64,000 bases of DNA from Longispora fulva (GTDB lineage Bacteria; Actinomycetota; Actinomycetes; Mycobacteriales; Micromonosporaceae): assembly GCF_015751905.1 (NCBI RefSeq), contig NZ_JADOUF010000001.1, positions 2,728,001-2,792,000 of the forward strand, read 5' to 3'. Below, in pieces: positions 12,081 through 26,188 of this stretch. The number at the start of each line of letters is the position of its first letter. Position 1 is the stretch's first letter. The notes beneath the pieces were generated by a model that was not told where the DNA came from, searched no databases, and saw only the letters and a list, made by a program, of their open reading frames with translations. Position numbers and translations under genes: made by a program.

Positions 12081-14423
12081 GTCGGCCCCGCGCTCGCGGG
12101 GATGTTCCCACCGCGGTGATGACGGCCGAGTGCACCTGGCCGTCGGCCCCGCGCTCGCGGGAATGTTCCCGGCCCGCCGGTGACGGTGATGTCGCCGGCG
12201 TTGTCGGCCCCGCGCTCGCGGGGATGTTCCTGACCGGGTACACGGCGTCGTCGGGGGTGTGCGGTCGGCCCCGCGCTCGCGGGGATGTTCCTTCCTGCTC
12301 ATCGTCGCAGCCCTCTACCGACGGGTCGGCCCCGCGCTCGCGGGGATGTTCCCCCCAGCAGGCCGGCCGTCTTGCACTCGACCAGGTCGGCCCCGCGCTC
12401 GCGGGGATGTTCCCGGGTGTATCGACATGACCGGAGCGCGCCGAGCGTCGGCCCCGCGCTCGCGGGGATGTTCCCGGTCAGGGCAAGAAGCCTTCGGGGC
12501 TTCGTGCGTCGGCCCCGCGCTCGCGGGGATGTTCCCCCGATGTATATCCAGACCGACGCGACCCACCTGTCGGCCCCGCGCTCGCGGGGATGTTCCCCGG
12601 GCCTCGCGGGCCTCGTCGGTCTTGAGCGCGTCGGCCCCGCGCTCGCGGGGATGTTCCTCACCGGCGGACCGCGTACTACCTCCGTTGTGCGTCGGCCCCG
12701 CGCTCGCGGGGATGTTCCCCCGTCGCCCATGTCCTTCGACGCCGGCAGGAAGTCGGCCCCGCGCTCGCGGGATGTTCCCGACTTCCTCGCGTACGTAAAG
12801 GAGAACGGCCCGTCGGCCCCGCGCTCGCGGGGATGTTCCCGCCTGCTTCGCCGGCGGATCGGGACGCCTCGGGTCGGCCCCGCGCTCGCGGGGATGTTCC
12901 CGGATCGGAGAGGTGCAGCTCGACCCGGCCGACGTCGGCCCCGCGCTCGCGGGGATGTTCCCGTGGGCGGGTTCGTCGCCCTGGTCGGCGCGTCGTCGGC
13001 CCCGCGCTCGCGGGGATGTTCCCCTGGCTGGCCTGGTTGTTGACGGCGTCGTCTAGTCGGCCCCGCGCTCGCGGGGATGTTCCCTACCGGTCTGACGGCA
13101 CCACCCGCACCCCCGGGTCGGCCCCGCGCTCGCGGGGATGTTCCCCGGCAGTGGTCCAGTCGGCGTGGATGACGTCGGTCGGCCCCGCGCTCGCGGGGAT
13201 GTTCCCTTCACCGGGCAGTCGGCGCAGACTTCCTCGCCGTCGGCCCCGCGCTCGCGGGGATGTTCCCCCGACGGTCGCGGCCGGCGCGACAAAGGGGTTG
13301 TCGGCCCCGCGCTCGCGGGGATGTTCCCACGCTCGGCGTGGGGTCGACGTCGGTCGGGGCGTCGGCCCCGCGCTCGCGGGGATGTTCCCACCGCCGGCAG
13401 CACCCCGGATGCGGTGGTTCAGTCGGCCCCGCGCTCGCGGGGATGTTCCCACCCCATACCCTGGTTCCGGCCCCGCCCGGGTGTCGGCCCCGCGCTCGCG
13501 GGGATGTTCCCAGCAGGGCCCCGCTCCCCCACCCCCCGAGGTTGTCGGCCCCGCGCTCGCGGGGATGTTCCCCACGCGTCGTCGTCCTTGTCGAGCCACC
13601 GCCCGTCGGCCCCGCGCTCGCGGGGATGTTCCCCCCATGATGACCCACGACCCCGTCGCCGTGTTGTCGGCCCCGCGCTCGCGGGGATGTTCCTGCGGAC
13701 ATGGCCACCGCCGTGATGGCCTACCGTCGGCCCCGCGCTCGCGGGGATGTTCCCACCCCATACCCTGGTTCCGGCCCCGCCCGGGTGTCGGCCCCGCGCT
13801 CGCGGGGATGTTCCCGAGTACCGCCAGTGGTCGCTGCCGTTCGACGTGTCGGCCCCGCGCTCGCGGGGCTGTTCCCGGTTTTGGGGACTGTCCACAAGCG
13901 AAACCCTTGTCGGCCCCGCGCTCGCGGGGATATTCCTCTGTGACGTAGGCCGACTGGCCGTAGGCGTTGGTCGGCCCCGCGCTCGCGGGGATGTTCCCGG
14001 TCGTCGCCGTCATCGTCGCCTCCCGGAGGGTCGGCCCCGCGCTCGCGGGGGTGTTCCCGCGGTCCGGGTCGACGAGGCGCAGGGCCCGAGGTCGGCTCCG
14101 CGCTCGCGGAGATGTTCCCGGGGCGATGGAGTACATGCCGGAGGAAGCGCGGTCGGCCCCGCGCTCGCGGGGATGTTCCCGAGATACCGGCTTTCACCTG
14201 CGGTCTAGGCTTGTCGGCCCCGCGCTCGCGGGGATGTTCCCTACACCCGGACGACATTCGCCACGTTCACCGGGTCGGCCCCGCGCTCGCGGGGATGTTC
14301 CCGCGCAGATGCCCCTCGAGGACACGGTGGGCGTGTCGGCCCCGCGCTCGCGGGGATGTTCCCGGTGGCTTCATCGCCGGCTCGAGCGTCTTCATGTCGG
14401 CCCCGCGCTTGCGGGGATGTTCC
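12081..14423 (+). CRISPR. Type I-E CRISPR array 1: 39 repeats, 38 spacers
   Basis: The repeat is 28 bp: it begins GTCGG, has a CCCCGCG-CT-CGCGGGG hairpin and ends ATGTTCC. The next base is variable (mostly C), as expected for a PAM-derived 29th base. The period is 61 with a few 60-nt units. Repeat orientation (hairpin, then an 8-nt handle) puts transcription on the plus strand and the leader at the left. Variant repeats sit mainly at the right, leader-distal end: 14030 (GGGGGTG), 14091 (compensated stem) and 14396 (CTTG). The 12752 repeat lacks one G. The spacers at 13450-13482 and 13754-13786 are identical. Translations through the array are artefacts. Confidence 0.97.
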
Positions 14424-14486: not shown

Positions 14487-14765
14487 TTATGCCCTTTGGC
14501 GGGCGGAGAGGATGAGTCCGTCGTAGTCGGTAGGGTGCCAGCGGTCTCGTCCTGCGGTGCGGACGGTCCAGCCTTGTTCGTTGTTGGCGGGTTCGATGAG
14601 GATGGCTTGTCCGTCGTTGATCCGGGTGGCGAGGAGGTCCCAGACGCGGTCTCGGATGCGGCGGCTGGGGTTGCCGACGAAGACGCCGGCGTGGACTTCG
14701 ATCATCCAGCGGGTGAGGTGCCCTCGGAGCCCTTCAGGTGCGGCGATGAGGATGATGACGGTCAT
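14487..14765 (-). CDS. cas2: Cas2, type I-E
   Basis: 92 residues and full length for Cas2e: MTVIILIAAPEGLRGHL at the N-terminus, then WMIEVHAGVFVGN and DGQAILIEPANNEQG, the features of the I-E branch. With Cas1 it forms the integrase complex that captures spacers. The ATG overlaps the cas1 stop by 4 bp, so it is translationally coupled. It is the last gene of the cas operon. Its stop lies 63 bp from the distal end of array 1, which runs toward it. Confidence 0.95.
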   Translation of the reverse strand: MTVIILIAAPEGLRGHLTRWMIEVHAGVFVGNPSRRIRDRVWDLLATRINDGQAILIEPANNEQGWTVRTAGRDRWHPTDYDGLILSARQRA

Positions 14766-15793
14766 CGGCGTGGGCCGGTGGGGGCCGGTCGGTCGAAGTC
14801 GGGGCCGATGACCGCGAGGTGTTCGTCGCCCATGCCGGGGTCAATGGGCCCGAGCGGATTTGCGTCGGAGTTGGTTGCCCAGTTGACTCCGCCTGCGACG
14901 GTGCCGAGGTGTTCGTCCCAGAGTTGGTTGAGTTCGTCGTCTGGGAGTTCTGTGCCTGTGGGAGTCAGGAGACTCTTGACGTCGCGGACGATGCGTCCGA
15001 GGAGTTGATCCTGGGCGATGCGGTCGCGGAGTCCGACGCGGGCGTCGCGTTCTTGTGTGAGACCTTTGCTGGCGAGGTCGAAGGCGAGGGGGATGGTGTA
15101 TTCGGCCTTGTAGAGGTCTGCGATGTCCAGGACGAAGGACGTTGCGAGGCCGGTATGGACGAATCCGAGGCCGGGGCTGGCTCCGAGGCCGACGATGACG
15201 GCGTGGCAGATGCCGTATAGGGCGGCGTTGGCGGCGGACAGGAGCCGGTTGAGGTCGTCGCCGGCGGCGTGGGCGTCGCCTGCCTTGTAGACGCGGCCGT
15301 TCCATGGGACGCCGGTACGGCGGGATTCGGCTTGGTAGATCTTGCGGACGCGCGCTCCTTCGCGGCCTCGGAGTTGTTGCATAGTGCAGGCGGTGACGTC
15401 CTCGTCGGGGAATCTCATGGCATACATGGCGCGGGCGACGGCGAGGCGTTGGGGGATGCGGCTGACGAGCCAGGCTTGGCGGTTGAGGAGTCCGGCGCCG
15501 CGGCTGGGGCCGAGTCCTGCGGCGTACATGCGGACGCCTTGCTCTCCGACCCAGCACACGGTGGTGCCGGAGTCGGCGAGCAGATTGATGGCGCCGTGGG
15601 TGACGCGGGTGCCGGGCCCGAGGAGCATGACGGCGATCATGGCGGCGGGGACGCGGACGGTTTCGCGTTTGTTGATGATGACGACGGCGTTTTCGTCGCG
15701 GTCGAGGTGGCTGCGTTCGACGTAGACGCTGGAGACGCGGTCGGCGAGTCGGTGCAGGTCGTGCGGGTGGGCTTTCCACCAGATGTCGACCAC
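14762..15793 (-). CDS. cas1: Cas1, type I-E integrase
   Basis: The metal-dependent spacer integrase. The GTG start at 15793 gives VVDIWWKAHPHDLHRLADR, the normal Cas1e N-terminus, and lies one base after the cas6e stop; an open extension to 15862 lies inside cas6e. Conserved blocks: VYVERSHLDRDENAVV, GTTVCWVGEQGVRMYA, LNRLLSAANAALYGICHAV (catalytic Glu/His region) and VLDIADLYKAEYTIPLA with the acidic active site. 343 residues, slightly longer than E. coli Cas1 through a C-terminal tail. It appears intact. Confidence 0.95.
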   Translation of the reverse strand: MVDIWWKAHPHDLHRLADRVSSVYVERSHLDRDENAVVIINKRETVRVPAAMIAVMLLGPGTRVTHGAINLLADSGTTVCWVGEQGVRMYAAGLGPSRGAGLLNRQAWLVSRIPQRLAVARAMYAMRFPDEDVTACTMQQLRGREGARVRKIYQAESRRTGVPWNGRVYKAGDAHAAGDDLNRLLSAANAALYGICHAVIVGLGASPGLGFVHTGLATSFVLDIADLYKAEYTIPLAFDLASKGLTQERDARVGLRDRIAQDQLLGRIVRDVKSLLTPTGTELPDDELNQLWDEHLGTVAGGVNWATNSDANPLGPIDPGMGDEHLAVIGPDFDRPAPTGPRR

Positions 15794-15794
15794 G

Positions 15795-16547
15795 TCACCG
15801 GCCTGCGGGTGGGGCGAGGGTGAGTAGTCCGCAGCCGTAAGCCTTAGAAGGGCCGATGCCATTGAGCATGGCCGTTTCGAGGAGTCGCGGATCGGTGACG
15901 CGCATGAAGCCCTCGAAGGTGGCCGTGGTGAGGGTGGCCGCGGTCTTGGAGCCGGGTTTGGTGATGTTGTGGCGGCTGCGGTCGATGATGCGCACGTCGT
16001 GGGCCGGCGTCAGCTGTTCCGGGAGGGCGAGGCCGGGTGCGGCGGGGTCGGTGCGGGCATGGGGGATGTCAAAGCCCCACCGGGTGGTGCGTTGCAGCAG
16101 CCAGTCGAGCTGGTGGGCTGCCGTGCGTTGCGGCAGGCGGTAGGACCGTTGGTGAAGTTCTTTCGGGGTCTTCTTGCGGTGCTCGCTGTCTCCGGTGGGT
16201 TTGGAGGAGTTCTGCACGGGGCTGGCGGTGAGGCGGAAGGCGAACTCTTTGCCGATGGCCAGTTGTGCGAGCAGCGGTGTGTAGTCGGCGATGGCGGAGT
16301 GTTCCCCGTCGGCGTCGGGCCATCCGGCCTGTTCGACGATGTGGGTCCAGTCCGGGCGCGACGGGCTCAGGACGAACAGCATCGGCCGGTGGGGGTTGTC
16401 GGAGTCCAGCCGCCACAGGACGCGTTCGTCGGTGGGCCGGTCGGCGATGCCGCCTTGCACGGCGCCGTGGATGGCGCGGGGGTTGGCGAGCAGCTTCTGG
16501 CTGGCTGCGCGCAGCGGGTTGATACGGATGCGGGACAGGAAAGGCAT
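15795..16547 (-). CDS. cas6e: Cas6e (CasE/Cse3) crRNA endoribonuclease
   Basis: Cuts pre-crRNA at the base of the repeat hairpin and stays in Cascade. 250 residues from ATG 16547: MPFLSRIRINPLRAASQKLL, with the ferredoxin-like N-terminal half and the early His-containing helix (NPRAIHGAVQGG, putative catalytic His). The end shows the Gly-rich loop GIGPSKAYGCGLLTL that typifies Cas6 proteins. It starts 4 bp after the cas5e stop. Its substrate stem, CCCCGCG/CGCGGGG, is present in both arrays and, with compensation, in the mini-array at 21089. Confidence 0.95.
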   Translation of the reverse strand: MPFLSRIRINPLRAASQKLLANPRAIHGAVQGGIADRPTDERVLWRLDSDNPHRPMLFVLSPSRPDWTHIVEQAGWPDADGEHSAIADYTPLLAQLAIGKEFAFRLTASPVQNSSKPTGDSEHRKKTPKELHQRSYRLPQRTAAHQLDWLLQRTTRWGFDIPHARTDPAAPGLALPEQLTPAHDVRIIDRSRHNITKPGSKTAATLTTATFEGFMRVTDPRLLETAMLNGIGPSKAYGCGLLTLAPPAGR

Positions 16548-16551
16548 GTGG

Positions 16552-17373
16552 TCACCAGCCCAACAGGGCGAAGGGGTCATGAGCGGGGGCCGCGGTGGCA
16601 TCGTCGGGTGCCGGGAATCCCGTGGGCACCGATAGCCAGGTGTGGCGGATCCGCCGGCTGGTGAAGCGGCGTTCGCGGGGCGCAAACGACAAGGGCACAT
16701 CGTGCGCGACGTCGTCGCCGTTGTCGTCGTCGATGGTCGCGGATAGGTCGACGTGGTCGGCGCGGGTGTTGGTGCGCTTGGCTGTGCGCCAGTAGGCGTC
16801 GCGATGGGCCTCGCCGGCCTGCCACGGTTCTGTGGCCAGCACGTCCAGCAGGGTTCCTTCCCTCAGGCCGCCCAATGCGATGGGCTGGGATGGGACGCAG
16901 GAGCGTCGGCCGAGTGCCAGTGGAAACGCGGGGCGGAGTACGGCGTCGGCGAGTCCCTCAATGAGGGGGCGTGGGCCTGAGATGGCGGCGAGGAACACGG
17001 CGTCTTGCAGGTAGAAGCGGTGGGTGACGTGGGTGTCCTTTGCAGGTGAGGTCAGTTTCTGCACACCTTTGGCGGATACGCCGGTCTGCGGGAGCGGCCG
17101 GCCCCGGTAGTCGCTGACGGTGTGGTAGTCGCGCAGCAGGGTGCCGGCCTGGTCGACGCGGATGCCGAGGCGCAGACCGAGCAGGTCTGTCAGGTCGGCT
17201 TCTCTGGGTAGTCCGGCGGCGGCGGCCAGCAGTCCGATGACGCCGGACTTGGTGGGCTCAGGTCGTGTCTCCCGCCGGTTGAAGGCGCTGCGGTCACCCC
17301 AGGACTGCAGCACGCCGGCCAGACGCAACACCAGCACGGGCTCGCCGCCCGAGGTCGGGTGGTAGGTGGTCAT
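16552..17373 (-). CDS. cas5e: Cas5e (CasD), Cascade 5'-handle subunit
   Basis: 273 residues: VLVLRLAGVLQSWGDRSAFNRRETRP is the conserved Cas5 opening, followed by TKSGVIGLLAAAAGLPRE. In Cascade, Cas5e caps the 8-nt crRNA handle and contacts Cse1. The ATG overlaps the cas7e stop by 4 bp. No truncation is seen. The C-terminal part, with RRFTSRRIRHTWLSVP, is normal for the family. Confidence 0.94.
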   Translation of the reverse strand: MTTYHPTSGGEPVLVLRLAGVLQSWGDRSAFNRRETRPEPTKSGVIGLLAAAAGLPREADLTDLLGLRLGIRVDQAGTLLRDYHTVSDYRGRPLPQTGVSAKGVQKLTSPAKDTHVTHRFYLQDAVFLAAISGPRPLIEGLADAVLRPAFPLALGRRSCVPSQPIALGGLREGTLLDVLATEPWQAGEAHRDAYWRTAKRTNTRADHVDLSATIDDDNGDDVAHDVPLSFAPRERRFTSRRIRHTWLSVPTGFPAPDDATAAPAHDPFALLGW

Positions 17374-18524
17374 GACAGGTCGCCCACCCGGTCGGCGAGG
17401 CTGGACTTCAGACCGGTCAGCAGGTCCGGGAAGGAAATGTTGGGCCCGAACGCGGCGGCGAGGTCGCGGGCCTCATCCGTGCCGTCGGCGAACGCGTGGG
17501 AGACGGCCACGTGTACCGGGGTGTCGCCCCACTGCCGGGTCGCAGTGGTGTACTCGCCTGCCAGGCGTCGGGCGGATTCAGCGACGATGCCGTCGGTGAC
17601 GGGTACCGGCTTCTCGAAGGCGGAGACCAGGTTGACCGGCTGATCGGCGCGCACTACAACGGCGACGAGGCTGGGGCGGGTGCGGTGGGCGAAGGAGTTG
17701 CCGTAGCCGGTGGGCATGGAACGGGCGAACGAGTCGACGAACAGGTTCACCGCGTCCACCGCCTTGTCGTGGGTGGTGAGGTTCTCCAGCAGTTGGTGCA
17801 GGCCCACGGTGGCGTAGCGGTAGAGGGTCGCGGAGTTAAAGCCGATCGTGCCGATCATTCCTGCACCGGTCTCATCGGCGGCGTTTTCGTCGTCGACGGC
17901 CGTGTAGTAGTCGAACTCGAGCTCGGCGGCGTGGGTGGAGATGGCGTGGGCGACCTGGGTCGCGGCATCGACGTTGAGGGCGGGGATATCTGCGACCATA
18001 CGCCCGAACAGGGCCACGTCGGCTGGGTGTCCCTGCCGCAGTTTGTCCTGCGCGCCGCGTCCTTCGACGGCCTTCTTCAGCCCGTCGTCGTCGAGTGCGG
18101 CGAGTTCGAGGATGTCGGCGGCGACGAGGTCGACGATCGTGTCGAGTTGACGACGGCCGAAGAACAACAGGTAGGCGGTGTCACCGGCCTTGCGACCCGC
18201 TGCGATACCCATCGGTTCCAGCAGCGCGCCGGCGATGCGCTGGGCTGCTTCGACCTCCATCGCGTTGCCGTCTGCCTTCGCGCGGGAGATCAGCTTCTTC
18301 GTGAGTTCACCGGCGATGCGCTTCGTGCGGGTACCCAGGTCCTCCTTGTCCTGCCTCTCGGCGAAGTGCATCCGGGTGGCGCGCTTCCACGCCTGGGAGG
18401 AGACCCGCGACCGGCGACTGCCCCCGAAGTCCGCCTCCTTGGGGTTGCCGTTGTCGTCGCGGTTGAGGTTGGCCGGGGGCACGGTCTGCAGGACGTGCAC
18501 ATCGATGTAGAGGCGTCGGGGCAT
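17370..18524 (-). CDS. cas7e: Cas7e (CasC/Cse4), Cascade backbone
   Basis: Six copies form the Cascade spine, and each thumb kinks the crRNA so that every sixth base is flipped out. 384 residues from ATG 18524 (MPRRLYIDVHVLQTVPPANL), followed by the conserved GGSRRSRVSSQAWKRATR. Later blocks include DYYTAVDDENAADETGAGM and SFARSMPTGYGNSFAHRTRP. The open frame upstream of 18524 is Cys/Ser-rich noise. There is a 74-bp gap from cse2. Confidence 0.95.
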   Translation of the reverse strand: MPRRLYIDVHVLQTVPPANLNRDDNGNPKEADFGGSRRSRVSSQAWKRATRMHFAERQDKEDLGTRTKRIAGELTKKLISRAKADGNAMEVEAAQRIAGALLEPMGIAAGRKAGDTAYLLFFGRRQLDTIVDLVAADILELAALDDDGLKKAVEGRGAQDKLRQGHPADVALFGRMVADIPALNVDAATQVAHAISTHAAELEFDYYTAVDDENAADETGAGMIGTIGFNSATLYRYATVGLHQLLENLTTHDKAVDAVNLFVDSFARSMPTGYGNSFAHRTRPSLVAVVVRADQPVNLVSAFEKPVPVTDGIVAESARRLAGEYTTATRQWGDTPVHVAVSHAFADGTDEARDLAAAFGPNISFPDLLTGLKSSLADRVGDLS

Positions 18525-18598
18525 GGACAAGGGAAACTCCAAAGAAAGGTGACAGCTGCGGGAGTCGGCGGAAGTGAAAGCGGTCTGTGGGCTACGGG

Positions 18599-19219
18599 CT
18601 ACTCGGCAGCCGGGGCCGTCGGGGCCTTGGGATCGGGGGTGTTGTGGGTCCACACCCGGTAGTCCAGCGCCCATCGCCGCCGGACCGGGGGCCGTCGGTC
18701 GGGGTGGTGCCAGTTCTGGATGTCGGCCATCAGCTGGGTGTAGTCCACGGGCTGGCTGATCACCCGCAGTTGGGTGATCAGGCTTCGCAGGTGACGAAGG
18801 AGTGCCGGCACGCTGGTGGCCGCGGCCATGGCCCCGACCCTGGCGTCGGTGGCCGAGTCGCTAAACTTCTCGTGGCGGCGTAGTGCCAGAAGGGCGGTGC
18901 CGAGACCGACCCCCTGCCGGTGCATGGGGACCTTCTCACCCTGCTGGTGTAGTCCGAACAGGGACAGCGCCGCGTGTTCGGCGGCTTGCTCGGCGGACAC
19001 TTCGCCGCGTCGGGCCAACATGTCGTTGACGGGGCATGTGTACAGCGCCCACATCTTCGGGGAATCCATCGGCGGACGGCCCAAGCCTGAGCGCATAGCG
19101 GCGAGGTCCTCCCCTGGCGGCGGGCCCTTGTCGGAACCGTGCTCACGCCATGCGTGGTCGGGCCCGACCCGACGCTGCCAGTACCGTTCTTTGATCTTGT
19201 AGTCCATGGCAGTGCTCAC
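18599..19219 (-). CDS. cse2: Cse2 (CasB), Cascade small subunit
   Basis: 206 residues, helical. Two copies lie along the target strand in Cascade. It begins at GTG 19219, overlapping the cse1 stop by 4 bp. Family features: LGRPPMDSPKMWALYT, AALSLFGLHQQGEKVPMHRQ (the usual ALslfalHQQ pattern) and RHLRSLITQLRVISQPVDY. The C-terminal 20 residues are Pro/Ala-rich. Confidence 0.92.
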   Translation of the reverse strand: MSTAMDYKIKERYWQRRVGPDHAWREHGSDKGPPPGEDLAAMRSGLGRPPMDSPKMWALYTCPVNDMLARRGEVSAEQAAEHAALSLFGLHQQGEKVPMHRQGVGLGTALLALRRHEKFSDSATDARVGAMAAATSVPALLRHLRSLITQLRVISQPVDYTQLMADIQNWHHPDRRPPVRRRWALDYRVWTHNTPDPKAPTAPAAE

Positions 19220-20928
19220 GCTCCGGTCATTGTTGCGGGCTGCGCGGCGTCGCTCGCGCGGCGTGCTGCCGCCTCAGTGGTGCGGGCGTCGGCGGCGCGG
19301 GGCAGGACTGCCCTGAGTTGGCGTAGGAAGTTGTGCTCCGCCGTGCCCAGCGAGTAGGTCACGGCTTTCTCATTGTTCTTGCCCTGTTTGGTTTGCTTCA
19401 CTTCCCGGCCGACGAACGCACCCGGCGGTGTGGTCGCGAAGACCTTCTCGGCGACGTCGCGGGTGGTGCGCCAGGCGAGTTTCTCCCATGCCAGCTGTCC
19501 GCGCTGCAAGACTTCCTCGTCGCCGCCCGCCGCCCGCACGCCGGCCAGCAGGCGTCGCACGAGCGGATCCAAGCCGTGCAGGACCAGCTCTCCGGGGCGC
19601 TGCCCCTCATTCCAGGGGATAGGGTCGGCGCCGGCCGCACGGCGCAGGTCCGCCGACAGGTTGTTGACCGCCCGGGCCAGCTTCTCCGCCTGTTCGGCGA
19701 CTTCCAGCACCATGTCGCGGGTGTCGGTGTCGGCGACAAGTGAGAGGATCGGCAGAGCGATGGCGTCACACAGGATGTCTTCGACCACGGCGGACTGGGT
19801 GCCGTAGATCATCCCGTAGGTGTGGACCTGCAGCGGGTAGTCGGCGGGGATGGCGCCGGAGTCCTGGAGTTCGGCGATCTGGTCGAGCAGGAAACTGGTC
19901 TCCACCGCGTTGTTGTCACGACCTGGGGTGAGCATGGCCTCAAGGCCCCTCCACGCTGCCTTGCCTGCGACGTGACGGCGCGGATGCCGGTGCCCTTTCG
20001 CCGCCTTCTTCTCGGTCCCCTTCTTACCAACCGGGGCAAGGTTCCACGCGGTGTGGGGTTCCCACTCCGGGACCATCGACAGCCGGTCACCGGCCGAGAC
20101 CACGACCCTAGCCACGCGCACGCCATCCTGCGTGTCGTGCGGGATCAGCCGGACACGGCGGCTCTGCCACGTCCATAGGTCCAAAAGGCCGTCGGCTGCC
20201 CTGGTCGTCCAGGCCGGTGTGGCCGCCGGACGCTTCCACTGGGGCACTCCGAGGCGGGCTGCCGGGGTGAACGGCATGTTCAGCAGCAGGGTCTCGTACA
20301 ACGTCTGACCGACCGGCATGACGACACCCAACTGGCCCAGCGGGCCGGTGGGATTTCCGGTCGTTTTACCCGCCTTGGCCTGGGGGTCATCGACCGCCCC
20401 TGTCTTGATCGCGGCGGTGTCCCAGCACAGCGTGTGCAGCAACCAGTGCACCGCCTGAGCGGGAGTCAGCTCGAGTGGATCGGCCTCGGTACGCGAAGCG
20501 AACAGCGGAACATTGTTGCCGCTGGCGGCATTGGCCACCAAGGTCGCGGAGCCCTTCGTCTCACCCTTGGTGGTGCGCAGCCCCGCCACCTGGCCGAAGG
20601 GGAAGGTCTGGCTGAATAGGTCGAACCGTTCATGATGTTCACCGAGGTAGATCCGCAGCCGCTCACGTTCGGCCTCCGAGAAGTGGCCCTGCGCGAAGCG
20701 CTGGCGCCAATCCCGCCGATCCGCGGGAGCCCCCAATGCGTCGACGACGACGGGCAGTAGCACCTGACGCAGCACTGCCGGTATCTGGGTCGGAAGATCC
20801 ATCACCAGATCCTCGAACCGGTCGGCATCGAGCAGCACGTCCAACAGGCCCACCTGCCGGGGGCCATCGTCGGAGCGCCGGCCGGTCATCCACGCCTCAT
20901 CGACCAGGTTGTACCAAAACACAGGCAC
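19216..20928 (-). CDS. cse1: Cse1 (CasA/Cas8e), Cascade large subunit
   Basis: Recognises the PAM and recruits Cas3. 570 residues: FWYNLVDEAWMTGR matches the FNLVDEPWI start of the family, then LPAVLRQ-like text (TQIPAVLRQVLLPVVVDAL) and the loop region ATLVANAASGNNVPLFASR. GTG 20928 is the start; the region upstream is not coding, so cse1 opens the Cascade part of the operon. Its promoter area carries the protospacer-like target of the mini-array at 21024-21117 and a TCTACAGTAGA palindrome, so cse1 and everything after it is probably autoregulated. Confidence 0.95.
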   Translation of the reverse strand: MPVFWYNLVDEAWMTGRRSDDGPRQVGLLDVLLDADRFEDLVMDLPTQIPAVLRQVLLPVVVDALGAPADRRDWRQRFAQGHFSEAERERLRIYLGEHHERFDLFSQTFPFGQVAGLRTTKGETKGSATLVANAASGNNVPLFASRTEADPLELTPAQAVHWLLHTLCWDTAAIKTGAVDDPQAKAGKTTGNPTGPLGQLGVVMPVGQTLYETLLLNMPFTPAARLGVPQWKRPAATPAWTTRAADGLLDLWTWQSRRVRLIPHDTQDGVRVARVVVSAGDRLSMVPEWEPHTAWNLAPVGKKGTEKKAAKGHRHPRRHVAGKAAWRGLEAMLTPGRDNNAVETSFLLDQIAELQDSGAIPADYPLQVHTYGMIYGTQSAVVEDILCDAIALPILSLVADTDTRDMVLEVAEQAEKLARAVNNLSADLRRAAGADPIPWNEGQRPGELVLHGLDPLVRRLLAGVRAAGGDEEVLQRGQLAWEKLAWRTTRDVAEKVFATTPPGAFVGREVKQTKQGKNNEKAVTYSLGTAEHNFLRQLRAVLPRAADARTTEAAARRASDAAQPATMTGA

Positions 20929-20934
20929 ACATCC

Positions 20935-20969
20935 AATTGGCTATGTCTACAGTAGAGCAGTGAGGAAGT
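20935..20969. promoter_or_regulatory. cse1 promoter with a partial protospacer and a palindrome
   Basis: On the plus strand AAT (20935-20937) is followed by TGGCTATGTCTACAGT (20938-20953), which matches the spacer of the adjacent mini-array at positions 1-5, 7-11 and 14-16. The last base of AAT also equals the mini-array's 29th repeat base. The site ends 6 bp from the cse1 GTG. A 5-1-5 palindrome TCTACAGTAGA (20946-20956) overlaps it. On the minus strand TACTGT or TAGACA could be the cse1 -10 element. A 32-nt Cascade footprint (20938-20969) would cover the whole promoter. Confidence 0.65.
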
Positions 20970-21023
20970 TCATGATGCCACCCTCTGGCTTCCCTGTCCA
21001 ACGGGTGCTTCAATGACGGGTCA

Positions 21024-21117
21024 GTCCCGCATGATCCACACGGCGGGGATGCTCCTTGGCTGTGTCTGAAGTCGTCTTCAGCCATGCACTCGGCTCCGCG
21101 TTCGCGGAGATGCTTCC
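21024..21117 (+). ncRNA. creR: CreR-like Cascade guide: degenerate repeat, 33-nt spacer, repeat
   Basis: Repeat remnant 1 (21024-21055) keeps CCCGC/GCGGG and the handle ATGCTCC. Repeat remnant 2 (21089-21117) reads CTCGG, then CTCCGCG-TT-CGCGGAG, then ATGCTTCC, a perfect stem in which C-G became T-A with compensation. Exactly 33 nt lie between, as in the arrays. The spacer starts TTGGCTGTGTCT and matches TTGGCTATGTCT at the cse1 promoter. The spacer also holds a CTGAAG-TCGT-CTTCAG hairpin. The orientation equals that of the arrays. From memory, CreR guides in other CRISPR types steer Cascade to cas promoters through partial, non-cutting matches. Transcription is inferred, and I see no strong promoter upstream of remnant 1. 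Confidence 0.7.
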
Positions 21118-21132
21118 ACCTCTTGGCCTCGT

Positions 21133-24063
21133 TCAGGGGCGTGCGCCTCGCGAGGGGCGCACACCGCCCCTGACGACCAGGCCCAGGTCGGTGTCGTAGG
21201 TGACCTGGAGGTCGCCCAGCTGCGTCCATCCGTCGGGTCCCAGGACCAGGGCGCGGCTGTAGCGCAGCCACGGGTGGTCGCGCCAGCTCGGCAGCGGAAC
21301 AAGGTTCTCCTCGACGACCGACGTCAACGAAGCCGGGAGTCGCACGGTCGCGCCAAGCACCTCCTCCACGAGTTCGCTGGTGGAGGCCTCCCCATTCGGA
21401 CCGAGCGAGCGACCAGAAGGGGTGCGGTACCCGGCATCGTCGTCACCGCGAACGACAATGACCTCGACCGTCGGATCTCCGTCTCGAACGAGCGCCTCGA
21501 AACGGCCCTCAGGGAGGCTTTCGCGGATCCCACCGGTGTGCAGGGCCTGCAGAGTCGGGTTGGCGTGCTCGCCGAGACGAGTCAACAGATACGGTGCCGC
21601 CGCCTCGGCGCGACGTCGTTGCCGGGTCGACCACGTCTCGCCAGCCGCGCGTTCTGCGACCGACCACGCCGCGGGCACAGCCTGCCCACCCCCGTAGACC
21701 TGCTCCACCAGCTGCGGGACCTGACCGGGAATCCGCCAGCCCTCCTGCTGCGCTTCGACAAGTGCGGCAGCGGTGCGCAGCAGCAGATACGAGCCGTAGA
21801 TTCCTTCACTGGCCTTCAAGATCCACGGAATCTGATCAGGGTCAAGGCAACCCAGACCCGTCACAACCACCGTCGCGACACTGACCCGTGCCGGCCGGTC
21901 CACCCCCTCATGGCGATGCAGCCTGCCGATGCGCTGCAACAGAAGGTCCATCGGGGCCAGGTCTGTGATCAGCAGGTCCGCGTCGACGTCAAACGACTGC
22001 TCCGCCAACTGTGTGGCCACAACGATCAACCGCTCCGGGCGTTGCCTGTCCTTCGATGGTGGCCCCAGCTTTTCAAGGCAGGCCTCGGTGCGCTCGGCAC
22101 GGTCGGCGGCATCAAGACGGCCGTGCAGCAGCACCACGTCGGCGCCGAACGTCTTCTTCAAGGCCGCATAGGCGCTCTGGGCGCGGGGCACCGTGTTGCG
22201 GATGACCAGGACACATCCCCCGTCTTGGAGACGGTCCTCGAGCAGGTTGACCATCGACTGATCGGCGGGCGAGATCGTGTCCGGCTCATCTGAGGCGATC
22301 GGGGGTTGCGGGGCCTCGGAGAGAATCTCGACCGTCACGGGCACGTCGTCACGCCAGGTCGAGCAGCTGTCGACCAGGAACTGCGGACCACTGTCCGCGA
22401 GCCACGCGGCGGTCACGCTCGGATACCCAGCTGGTTCGGGAAGATCGGGCACGTCGCGCTCCTCCCGGGAACGGGCACCTGCCAGATACGCCCCCACCAA
22501 CGCCCGCCGCTGCGCCGACGGCAGCGTCGCAGACAACATCACCACCGGCACGCCGGCCTGCCCCAGCCACCACAGCCCCTCCTCCAGGAACTGCGACATG
22601 TACACATCAGCCGCGTGCACCTCGTCGAGCACCACGACCTTGCCCACCAGCCCGGCCATCCGCAGCATCACATGCCGGGTCCGCGTGGCGGCGAACAACA
22701 GCTGGTCGATCGTCCCCACCACGAACGGGGACAGCAGACCCCGCTTGCGGCCAAGGAACCACTCCGCCGGCGCCCGACGCTCCACCGCACCGTGCCCGCC
22801 GAAGGCCGCCATGCCGTACTCGTCCACACCGTCGATGTCCTCACCGACCGAGGTGAAACAGTCATCGGCGCACTCATCCCCGACATCGTCCAGCAGGGCG
22901 CGCCATTCCTTGTTGAACATGCGTTTGCCGTGCAGAAGCGCGACCTGACTCTCCAGGCCCGGTTCCACACTGCGCAGCCAGTCGCGTACCTGCGCGAACA
23001 TCGGATCACACGTCGCCTGCGTCGGCATTCCGACGAACACACCATCCGCACCGAACCGAGACGCCAGTACCTCCGAGGCGACCAGCGCGGTCTTTGTCTT
23101 GCCCTCCCCCATCGGTGCCTCGATGATCACCAACCCCGAGCCGCCCATCCGCCGCACCGCATCCAGCACCATCCGCTGCGAGGGACGCGGCTCCTGGCCG
23201 AACCGGCGCTGAAACACCTGCGGACCCGGTGTCGGCAACTGCCCCCACCCGCCACGCAGCCCCAACTCCGCCCAGGCCCCAGCGGCACGAACCCGGGCTC
23301 CACCCATGCTGACCCGGTCGAGGTCGTCAATTCCACCGAACTTGGTTTGGTCACTGGCGATCCAATCCGCCATCACCACAAACCCCGACAGCTGCAACTG
23401 AACCGCACGCGGCGGCACCACGCGCGGTTCCACAGCCAGCAACGGATTCTCGGAGTCAAAGCCCAGTTCCCGAGTGAACACCTCCACCAGAACCTGCTGG
23501 GCCTCTTCCCAGGCGACGCCTCTGCCCTGCAATGCGGGCGTGCCCGCCTTCAACTGGCCGCGAGAGGGATACGAGCCGTGATGGCCCGCGATCAATGGCC
23601 ACACCCAGTCCACCTGGGCCTCATCCCACCCGGCCGCATCCAACACCCGGATCAGAAGCTTCGCTCCCGCCTTGTCATGCCGCCACGACTTTCCCTTGAC
23701 CGCATACCGGTCCCACGTCAGACCCGACCCCCACACCGCGGCGGTACCCAACGGATCAACCTGCTGAAACGCGGGCGTGGCCTTCCCGCAGTCATGCACA
23801 CCACACAGCCACGCAAAGAACCGCCGGCCCCGACCGACACCGCCTGCGACGTCATCCAACACCCGCCGGACACGCACAGGCAGATAGCAGTCCCACACCC
23901 GCTCTGCCACCGCAGCCGTGTCCAACATGTGCGACAGCAGCAAATTCATCACCCCGCCGCCGTTCATCGCCGACTTACCCCACAGCACACCTACCCGACC
24001 ACGCACCTCGACTCCGTAGAATCGCCAATAGTCAACAGCGACAACCGCAGGTGCGTCATTCAT
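21133..24063 (-). CDS. cas3: Cas3 HD nuclease-helicase
   Basis: 976 residues from ATG 24063; the longer frame to 24306 runs into array 2 and is not real. The N-terminal HD nuclease shows LLSHMLDTAAVAER, LCGVHDCGKATPAF (HD), WRHDKAGAKLL and IAGHHGSYPSRG. The SF2 helicase follows: Walker A EAPMGEGKTKTAL, DEVHAADVYM, VMLSATLPS and motif VI QRIGRLHRH. It unwinds and degrades DNA marked by Cascade. It is separated from cse1 by 204 bp that hold the CreR-like RNA, so it is probably expressed from its own promoter inside the array 2 leader, on the opposite strand. No lesion seen. Confidence 0.96.
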   Translation of the reverse strand: MNDAPAVVAVDYWRFYGVEVRGRVGVLWGKSAMNGGGVMNLLLSHMLDTAAVAERVWDCYLPVRVRRVLDDVAGGVGRGRRFFAWLCGVHDCGKATPAFQQVDPLGTAAVWGSGLTWDRYAVKGKSWRHDKAGAKLLIRVLDAAGWDEAQVDWVWPLIAGHHGSYPSRGQLKAGTPALQGRGVAWEEAQQVLVEVFTRELGFDSENPLLAVEPRVVPPRAVQLQLSGFVVMADWIASDQTKFGGIDDLDRVSMGGARVRAAGAWAELGLRGGWGQLPTPGPQVFQRRFGQEPRPSQRMVLDAVRRMGGSGLVIIEAPMGEGKTKTALVASEVLASRFGADGVFVGMPTQATCDPMFAQVRDWLRSVEPGLESQVALLHGKRMFNKEWRALLDDVGDECADDCFTSVGEDIDGVDEYGMAAFGGHGAVERRAPAEWFLGRKRGLLSPFVVGTIDQLLFAATRTRHVMLRMAGLVGKVVVLDEVHAADVYMSQFLEEGLWWLGQAGVPVVMLSATLPSAQRRALVGAYLAGARSREERDVPDLPEPAGYPSVTAAWLADSGPQFLVDSCSTWRDDVPVTVEILSEAPQPPIASDEPDTISPADQSMVNLLEDRLQDGGCVLVIRNTVPRAQSAYAALKKTFGADVVLLHGRLDAADRAERTEACLEKLGPPSKDRQRPERLIVVATQLAEQSFDVDADLLITDLAPMDLLLQRIGRLHRHEGVDRPARVSVATVVVTGLGCLDPDQIPWILKASEGIYGSYLLLRTAAALVEAQQEGWRIPGQVPQLVEQVYGGGQAVPAAWSVAERAAGETWSTRQRRRAEAAAPYLLTRLGEHANPTLQALHTGGIRESLPEGRFEALVRDGDPTVEVIVVRGDDDAGYRTPSGRSLGPNGEASTSELVEEVLGATVRLPASLTSVVEENLVPLPSWRDHPWLRYSRALVLGPDGWTQLGDLQVTYDTDLGLVVRGGVRPSRGARP

Positions 24064-24211
24064 GCCCACGACGCTAGAGCAAGGCACCGACAATTCCGTC
24101 AAGAACAAGATCAATCCGAGATGGATCATGTAATGCCGCCAGCGACCCCAGACCGCAATGCAACTGAATGAAATGGGGCCTCCCGCACCGTAAAGCCCCA
24201 GGTCACCAAGC
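24014..24211 (+). promoter_or_regulatory. CRISPR array 2 leader, overlapping the cas3 start
   Basis: This block contains the first 17 codons of cas3 on the minus strand and the leader of array 2 on the plus strand, ending CCCAGGTCACCAAG directly before repeat 1. It must drive both directions: cas3 leftward and pre-crRNA rightward. It aligns with the array 1 leader over its full length. Confidence 0.75.
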
Positions 24212-26188
24212 GTCGGCCCCGCGCTCGCGGGGATGTTCCCGCGGTGTGCTCGCCGATCTCCAGGGGCAGGAGGTCGGCCCCGCGCTCGCGGGGATGTTCC
24301 CGGCACCCTGGACGCCGCCTCCGCGTCGAGGGTGTCGGCCCCGCGCTCGCGGGGATGTTCCCCGGTCGAGGTGGGCCGAGTGGGGCGGCGTAGCGTCGGC
24401 CCCGCGCTCGCGGGGATGTTCCGCCATGGCCGGCCACTTCACCCGCCCCGGGGAGGTCGGCCCCGCGCTCGCGGGGATGTTCCCGAAGATCCGGCCGACC
24501 AGGTCGGCGTCGTGGAGTCGGCCCCGCGCTCGCGGGGATGTTCCCGCCGCCGACCCGGTGAACAGCTCGCCGAGAGAGTCGGCCCCGCGCTCGCGGGGAT
24601 GTTCCCGTCGACCTGGGCGAGTGCCCGAGCCCTGCGGCGTCGGCCCCGCGCTCGCGGGGATGTTCCCTCGGCTCTGGCGGGACCGAGCAGTGACCGCCCG
24701 TCGGCCCCGCGCTCGCGGGGATGTTCCCACCTCGGTCAGGACCCGGGTGCGGACCTCGCCGTCGGCCCCGCGCTCGCGGGGATGTTCCCCGGTCGCCGTC
24801 CTGGACGACGACACCGCCGCCGTCGGCCCCGCGCTCGCGGGGATGTTCCCTCCCCGGACCGGGTGGCACCCTGCATCATCCCGTCGGCCCCGCGCTCGCG
24901 GGGATGTTCCCGCCTGCCATTCGTCCATGCCGCCGTGCTCGGTGTCGGCCCCGCGCTCGCGGGGATGTTCCTCCCTTCACGAAGATCCAAACTCCGCGCG
25001 CCGTGTCGGCCCCGCGCTCGCGGGGATGTTCCCGCCTACGACCCGTCCGAGGACTCCGTCGCCCAGTCGGCCCCGCGCTCGCGGGGATGTTCCCTCTCGG
25101 TCAGCCAGGTCGGGGTCGTTCACGCAGTCGGCCCCGCGCTCGCGGGGATGTTCCCGGCAGAAGGCCCAACGTGACGCAGCGTGTACCGTCGGCCCCGCGC
25201 TCGCGGGGATGTTCCCACCGGACCCGTCCAGGGGATGCGGCACTACCTGTCGGCCCCGCGCTCGCAGGGATGTTCCGGTCTCCTTGACGGGGCTGACGCG
25301 GTCGTGGCGTCGGCCCCGCGCTCGCGGGGATGTTCCCCGGCTGCGGTCCAGGTGGTACCGCAGCACCGCGTCGGCCCCGCGCTCGCGGGGATGTTCCGAC
25401 GCGTTCGGGGTGCTCGCCGACGCCCAGGTGGTCGGCCCCGCTCGCGGGGATGTTCCCTCGATGTCCGGGGAGCGTGCCTCAACCTCGACGTCGGCCCCGC
25501 GCTCGCGGGGATGTTCCCCAGTTCCCGGCATAGCCACGCCGAGAATCGATGTCGGCCCCGCGCTCGCGGGGATGTTCCCACCGTGCGCAGGAACCCGTAG
25601 GCGAACAGGAAGTCGGCCCCGCGCTCGCGGGGATGTTCCTCGGTCACTTCCAGGCCGAACACCTCGTGAGTAGTCGGCCCCGCGCTCGCGGAGATGTTCC
25701 CACCCGAGCAGTTCGCCAGCCTCATGGGTGATCGTCGGCCCCGCGCTCGCGGGGATGTTCCTTGCGCGCCGAAATACGGAGTGATGCTCCGGACGTCGGC
25801 CCCGCGCTCGCGGGGATGTTCCCACCACGTGCGCCCCAAGGACTGGAAAACCTGGGTCGGCCCCGCGCTCGCGGGGATGTTCCTGTGCGGTGGCCGAGCC
25901 ATACGCAGCCCGCTGCGTCGGCCCCTCACTCGCGGGGATGTTCCCACCGTGCGCCCGGAGCTGGCCATGCCGGTGGAGTCGGCCCCGCGCTCGCGGGGAT
26001 GTTCCCCTCTGGCTGATCGACGCCGGGGGTCTCTGGTGGTCTGCCCCGCGCTCGCGGGGATGTTCCCTTGTGCCCGCTGATGCTGATCGAGTCGGTCAGG
26101 TCGGCCCCGCGCTCGCGGGGATGTTCCCCAGGACTCGTAGTCGTAGCCGATCCAGATCCCGTCCGCCCCGCGCTCGCGGGGATGTTCC
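24212..26188 (+). CRISPR. Type I-E CRISPR array 2: 33 repeats, 32 spacers
   Basis: Same repeat as array 1 and the same orientation, period 61. The repeat at 25431 lacks two bases (GCCCCGCTCGCGG). Single-base variants lie toward the right: CGCAGGG (25246), GCGGAGATG (25673), CCTCACTCG (25917), GTCTGCC (26039) and GTCCGCC (26161). The pattern fits an old distal end at the right. The last unit ends at 26188, after which sequence periodicity is lost. Confidence 0.97.

Follow-up and report, generated by a model that had tools for sequence, protein, structure and literature searches.

What does a repeat–spacer–repeat unit with a single spacer do between cas3 and cse1 of a type I-E CRISPR-Cas operon? 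The question is raised by the window, by which we mean the whole 64,000-nucleotide stretch of Longispora fulva DNA that was analysed. Here the two cas genes, both on the minus strand, are separated by a gap of 204 nt, and the small unit lies within this gap on the plus strand. The analyses described below indicate that this mini-array is very probably a guide RNA gene of the CreR type, through which Cascade would repress its own cse1 operon.

The features of the locus are listed in Table 1. Cse1, Cse2, Cas7, Cas5e, Cas6e and Cas1e all exceed the curated cut-offs of the type I-E models, and Cas3 passes the cas3 core and HD models. The effector genes are present, and the mini-array adjoins the operon that carries them. 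The 5′ part of the cas3 ORF runs into array 2, and the true start of cas3 is therefore probably further in. A 92-aa ORF (14487–14765) occupies the place expected for cas2, and a 124-aa ORF on the minus strand (20897–21271) spans the gap and overlaps both cse1 and cas3. One spacer of array 1 is present twice, at positions 13422 and 13726 of the window. The genome contains a third CRISPR unit (C1:768548–768636; L195), consisting of two repeats and one spacer with 61-nt spacing. At its first repeat it runs over the 5′ end of a tRNA-Arg (acg) gene predicted on the other strand (C1:768614–768690), and it may be an off-site integration or the scar of a recombination.

Table 1. Features of the cas operon, the mini-array and its target, in window coordinates
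Feature	Position	Strand	Basis
cas1e	14762–15862	−	TIGR03638
cas6e ORF (match from residue 93; expected processing nuclease)	15795–16700	−	TIGR01907
cas5e	16552–17373	−	TIGR01868
cas7 ORF (profile match from residue 56)	17370–18674	−	TIGR01869
cse2 (casB)	18599–19219	−	TIGR02548
cse1 (casA), first gene behind the target	19216–20928	−	TIGR02547
cas3 (long ORF)	21133–24306	−	ORF list and profile match
CRISPR array 1, period 61 (first and last repeats start at 12081 and 14396)	12081–14423	+	repeat scan
CRISPR array 2, period 61 (first and last repeats start at 24212 and 26161)	24212–26188	+	repeat scan
PAM-side AAT adjoining the target	20935–20937	+	sequence
Target (protospacer) upstream of cse1	20938–20969	+	spacer matches at positions 1–5, 7–11, 14–16 and 18
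Putative cse1 −10 element TAGACA, within the target	20944–20949	−	inferred; TA[AG]ACA here in 8/12 loci of the window's type
Alternative promoter-like site for cse1 (TGGACA-17-CATCAT), immediately upstream of the target	20972–21000	−	consensus match only
Possible repeat-1 hairpin TCCCGC/GCGGGG, widened 12-nt loop	21025–21048	+	folding
Repeat 1 (29-nt unit), 3′ half GCGGGGATGCTCC retained	21028–21056	+	repeat comparison
8-nt 5′ handle of the predicted guide RNA, ATGCTCCT	21049–21056	+	cut site inferred from I-E crRNA processing
Guide spacer, 32 nt, with internal hairpin CTGAAG-TCGT-CTTCAG	21057–21088	+	sequence and folding
Repeat 2 (stem 21094–21099/21104–21109; one inserted base near 3′ end)	21089–21116	+	repeat comparison and folding
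Predicted mature CreR, 61 nt (8 + 32 + 21)	21049–21109	+	inferred from anatomy and I-E crRNA processing

The mini-array is unlike an ordinary CRISPR array in that it has a single spacer, both repeats have diverged, and the spacer matches the region upstream of its own cse1. The two repeats are nevertheless in register, their starts being spaced by exactly 61 nt, the period of both arrays in the window. A first-pass annotation made from the sequence had placed and oriented the unit correctly; its spacer length of 33 nt applies when the repeat is counted as the 28 invariant nucleotides, and becomes 32 nt with the 29-nt repeat unit used for E. coli type I-E, which we adopt. It had also called repeat 1 degenerate. 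The repeat is divergent, but not merely so, as it keeps the handle and, when folded alone, can form a stem of 6 pairs (21025–21030 with 21043–21048, one pair being U-G). The corresponding 35-nt piece folds no better than shuffled sequences (z −0.26); nor does the whole 99-nt stretch (z −0.90), in which the seed is paired and the repeat-1 stem is absent. Repeat 2 folds into 6 pairs with a 4-nt loop, its stem being kept by a double change from C-G to T-A (CCCCGCG/CGCGGGG to CTCCGCG/CGCGGAG).

We note that the repeat of array 1 at 14091, near the far end of that array, has the identical double stem change. The hairpin in the distal part of the spacer (21066–21081) is perfect, and 4 of 200 shuffles of the spacer alone fold at least equally well. 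Inverted repeats were also seen by eye in the 32–33-nt spacers of two relatives, L147 and L035.

Read from the PAM side, the spacer is complementary in part to the sequence before cse1, where the promoter probably lies. All the matches listed in the first-pass annotation, which ended at position 16, hold, and position 18 matches as well; the AAT that it reported beside the target is present. In E. coli terms AAT is a weak PAM. Over 14 read positions (1–16 minus 6 and 12) the target scores 13/14, while the next best site on either strand of the window scores 10/14. The combined PAM and seed pattern AANTGGCTNTGTCT has a single occurrence in the genome of 8,676,660 bases, at the target, and the copy within the spacer itself is preceded by CCT rather than AAN. 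As a check on the PAM, phage protospacers were sought for array 2; the 7 records returned were weak matches (86–89%) to one stretch, and none was usable.

There are two possible places for the cse1 promoter. Among the 12 loci that are of the window's type, 8 have the motif TA[AG]ACA on the cse1 strand within the seed half of the target, and this motif is probably the −10 element. The other is the TGGACA-17-CATCAT site; if this is the promoter, the target would cover the start of the cse1 message. Cascade bound at the target could hinder cse1 in either case. The target starts upstream of the cse1 match, at a distance of 9–31 nt in 9 of the 12 loci and of 56, 65 and 122 nt in the other three. 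A second group of loci has no TA[AG]ACA motif, and the seeds there still co-vary with their targets. The overlap of the seed with a promoter-like motif might also be expected if the two similar stretches were operators of a protein regulator, with the repeats incidental. Such sites would not have a crRNA handle before one copy, AAN before the other and a Cas6e-type hairpin behind; a protein site would not skip every sixth base, and the 46 elements described below contain 40 different read seeds. We regard operators as scarcely credible, and return to a guide RNA of the CreR type, for which the comparison with relatives is the main evidence.

Among the sampled genomes, Cse1 homologues occur in 82 of the 354 from the family, in 53 of the 397 from the order and in 64 of the 394 from the class; these samples overlap. 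A further 14 loci came from named genomes (Streptosporangium, Nonomuraea, Kitasatospora, Microbispora, Actinocorallia and others). Set 1 comprises 190 regions upstream of cse1, including weak paralogs and two near-duplicate pairs; it leaves out 8 of 95 places in the family, a few weak or split places in the order, the weaker places in the class beyond the 49 used, and plasmid Cse1 matches. A later set, with rules fixed beforehand, consists of 27 loci from 394 genomes of the family of genome G755 (131 with a match; places without a locus were dropped).

In set 1, 78 candidates were defined by handle and downstream hairpin, without use of the match. The best seed match to about 300 nt upstream of cse1 covered 10 of the 10 read positions in 18 candidates, 9 in 6, 8 in 16, 7 in 30 and 6 in 8, and all 18 perfect matches have AA at −3/−2 in a search that did not require a PAM. 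Detection by the match, requiring AA, found elements in 26 of the 190 regions, and three more with weaker stems bring the number to 29, which should not be read as a prevalence, given the paralogs, near-duplicates and dropped places. The later set yielded 26 candidates, of which 17 matched at 10/10, and its 27 loci include 17 with pairs, 18 pairs altogether; one locus (L199) has the same sequence as L035 of set 1, leaving 26 new loci and 16 new elements, which come from a related family and whose seeds are not all new.

There are thus 46 elements in total (29/190 and 17/27), 45 of them distinct, one of which (L202) has the window's seed. The least sure are L120 and L002, whose targets lie 193 and 178 nt away from the cse1 match. 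The counts of pairs include one in L004 and the second target of L222, both apparently spurious. The third base of the PAM is C in 23 elements, G in 13, T in 9 and A in 1. The fixed rules returned no pair for ten of the 27 later loci; when they were relaxed post hoc, plausible elements could be seen in five of these (L200, L204, L206, L210 and L215), which are not counted. Even a relaxed look found nothing convincing in L031, L134, L135, L038 and L041, where cas3 is co-oriented. In L032, L200 and L204 the sole mismatch in the read seed is at position 2, where spacer G faces promoter A, which would give a G-U type of pair with the target strand.

The first-pass annotation expected spacer and promoter to change together in relatives, with positions 6 and 12 free, and took the mismatches at these two positions as the mark of conserved function. 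Both expectations are borne out. Across the 46 elements and their 40 read seeds, spacer and promoter region agree within each genome, which is the opposite of independent drift; the match of the spacer to the putative promoter is conserved in the relatives. An unbiased view of the unread positions comes from pairs chosen by AA and positions 1–5 alone, leaving position 6 onward free. In 40 such pairs, 189 of the 200 cells at positions 7–11 are matches, against 11/40 at position 6 and 4/40 at position 12. The 22 pairs of set 1 have 5, 21, 21, 20, 21, 20 and 3 matches at positions 6 to 12, followed by 15, 12, 10, 8, 8 and 5 at positions 13 to 18, which is near background by 18. The 18 later pairs have 6, 17, 17, 18, 17, 17 and 1 at positions 6 to 12, with later positions near background, and the counts become 6, 16, 16, 16, 16, 16 and 1 for the 16 pairs remaining when L199 and the spurious L222 target are removed. 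Comparison of positions 6 and 12 with 7–11 in the full sets gives Fisher P = 2e-20 (set 1) and 9e-18 (later set), values that are uncorrected for relatedness. Matching at position 12 is below 25% (4/40, P 0.016), whereas that at position 6 is not (11/40). The 46 elements were selected by seed; 12 of them match at position 6 and 5 at position 12.

We know of no other mechanism that leaves a mark at every sixth base. Type I-E Cascade flips out every sixth base, according to PMC5904413. A seed with positions 6 and 12 free corresponds to the way in which this Cascade reads its guide.

Spacers of set 1 matched the promoters of other genomes at 10/10 in 35 of 14,731 pairs (0.24%), 4 with AA, and those of the later set matched each other's promoters in 3 of 442 pairs, all with AA. 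With shuffled promoters, the 78 candidate spacers gave a 10/10 seed in 0.03% of 3120 trials, no PAM being required. When the 190 regions were searched for handle, hairpin and a 10/10 match, the real sequence gave 22 with AA and 1 only without AA, compared to 1 for the reverse complement and none for the complement or the reversed sequence; at 9/10 the numbers were 26, 8, 4, 0 and 1 respectively. The reverse complement is not a clean control, in that three of its four matches (L172, L151 and L085) resemble genuine elements in the other orientation. These three have handle, spacer, hairpin and an AA-side seed match of 9–10/10 on the cse1 strand upstream of cse1.

The divergence of repeat 1 and the unmatched distal half of the spacer would be natural in a decaying array remnant, whose spacer was once acquired from its own cse1 promoter and is now functionless. 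Decay, however, would be even, and the 40 pairs, which were chosen blind to positions 6–12, retain the seed at its read positions but not at 6 and 12. The stems also remain paired despite changes in their sequence, and we consider a remnant very unlikely. In 27 of 29 elements, repeat 1 can form a stem that ends at the handle and has 5 or more pairs, counting G-U; about 40% of shuffles can do so. The stems vary yet stay paired (CCCTC/GAGGG, CCCACC/GGTGGG, CCCGAG/CTCGGG, CTCTGC/GCAGAG), and the repeat-2 hairpin is kept across elements. The handle and stem of repeat 1 and the stem of repeat 2 are thus all conserved, and these are the parts that a mature I-E crRNA needs.

The presence of an element is related to the gap between cas3 and cse1, whose size was measured between the cse1 match and the point where the cas3 alignment ends and is therefore approximate. 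No element was found in 64 regions with a gap of 0–120 nt, compared to 22 in 48 with 120–700 nt (4/14 at 120–200 nt, 14/24 at 200–350 and 4/10 at 350–700). A cas3 was found in 115 of the 190 regions; the three with a gap below 0 had no element, and seven elements have no cas3 match within the stretch. The position directly behind the cas3 stop, together with the strong hairpins, suggests a further possibility, that the hairpins end or attenuate the cas3 message and the spacer match is secondary. A scan of the window gap found no terminator-like site with a T run, and attenuation leaves both the seed match and the unread positions unexplained. We give this possibility very little weight.

Against a guide RNA, a consensus scan found no sigma-70-type promoter for the plus strand in the window gap. 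Five relatives (L032, L033, L034, L037 and L044) share a block just 5′ of repeat 1 that ends in TA[AG]AGT or TAAGGT and is a candidate promoter of the guide RNA; the window bears a partial likeness to this block.

The lengths of the 46 spacers, measured from the repeat-2 stem to within about one base either way, fall into separate groups: 13–15 nt (6), 19–22 nt (23), 25 nt (1) and 31–33 nt (16), with none between. The groups cluster near 14, 20, 26 and 32 nt, in steps of six, which is the number of bases held by one Cas7; the window spacer is the full-length form. Where the guide is short, as in L032, L034 and L037, the arrays still have a period of 61; it is therefore the guide that is short and not the system. 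We lean slightly towards the view that actinobacterial I-E guides of about 32, 26, 20 and 14 nt (32 minus multiples of six) form undersized Cascades, down to a two-hexad version that would read little beyond the 11-nt seed, and that these are dedicated non-cutting repressors built from subunits of the defence complex. Published work places six Cas7 subunits on the spacer of I-E and I-F1 Cascade (PMC7296934). In type I-B, guides with spacers no longer than 24 nt are reported to repress but not to interfere (PMC10989794); for type I-E, a spacer shortened by 6 or 12 is reported still to permit slow degradation (PMC7296934). Because shortened I-E guides still allow slow degradation, short pairing, and not length alone, should be what keeps Cas3 off.

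We infer transcription, processing, loading and repression from the arrangement of the locus, as follows. The guide would be transcribed divergently from cse1 and cut by Cas6e at both repeats to give the crRNA-like RNA of Table 1, which would be loaded into the type I-E Cascade encoded by the same operon. This Cascade would recognise AAT and pair with the 10 read bases of the 11-nt seed (6 and 12 being unread) and with a few bases beyond it, within the region of the cse1 promoter or start; the pairing would be too short for the full R-loop that licenses Cas3. Bound Cascade would block transcription of cse1-cse2-cas7-cas5-cas6e and the genes behind, and the promoter would open when Cascade is scarce or is titrated by ordinary crRNAs or by anti-CRISPR proteins. 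The strength of repression by guide-loaded Cascade is likewise something that we infer. According to PMC5904413, E. coli Cascade binds DNA with AAG and a 5-bp seed, position 6 being far less important, and represses when at promoters; seed-only off-target sites in E. coli left transcription unchanged, which is explained there by their mostly intragenic location.

Natural guides with which an effector represses its own genes have precedents. Liu et al. (2023, Cell Host Microbe) are said to have described CreR as a cas-regulating RNA of type I-E. In Cas9 systems, tracr-L (attributed to Workman, 2021) reportedly lets the effector repress its own operon through a natural guide, like the predicted CreR; it is said to differ from the window element in having a class 2 effector and another RNA architecture. 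CreRs are already in print for types I-B, I-E and V-A, and the element in the window would add another of type I-E. CreR-mediated autorepression in type I-E is in print in PMC13131331, and sensing of crRNA and Acr is described in PMC12737573 and PMC12948488. In these reviews CreR is a mini-CRISPR RNA that is partially complementary to a cas promoter and with which the effector represses its own genes, the same as is predicted here. The CreA of CreTA (type I-B, Haloarcula) is, according to PMC10989794, a crRNA-like RNA that guides Cascade to a promoter through an 11-bp seed, resembling the predicted guide. The target of CreA is a toxin gene, whereas that in the window lies directly before cse1. 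The Racr RNA anti-CRISPRs of phages, as described in PMC10651486, are solitary CRISPR-repeat-like RNAs processed by a Cas6 enzyme, as the predicted guide would be. A literature search whose reach did not extend to the full texts of Liu et al. 2023 and Shmakov et al. 2023 found no account of an unread-base signature or a length ladder of CreRs.

The co-variation across lineages indicates that the region before cse1 and the adjacent guide RNA evolve together under the base-reading rule of Cascade, and suggests that feedback control is common in actinobacterial type I-E systems. The pattern of read bases points to ten bases for mutation, and the length ladder makes the natural use of shortened Cascades as repressors testable. 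The finding bears on how type I-E systems stay quiet and may answer anti-CRISPR proteins.
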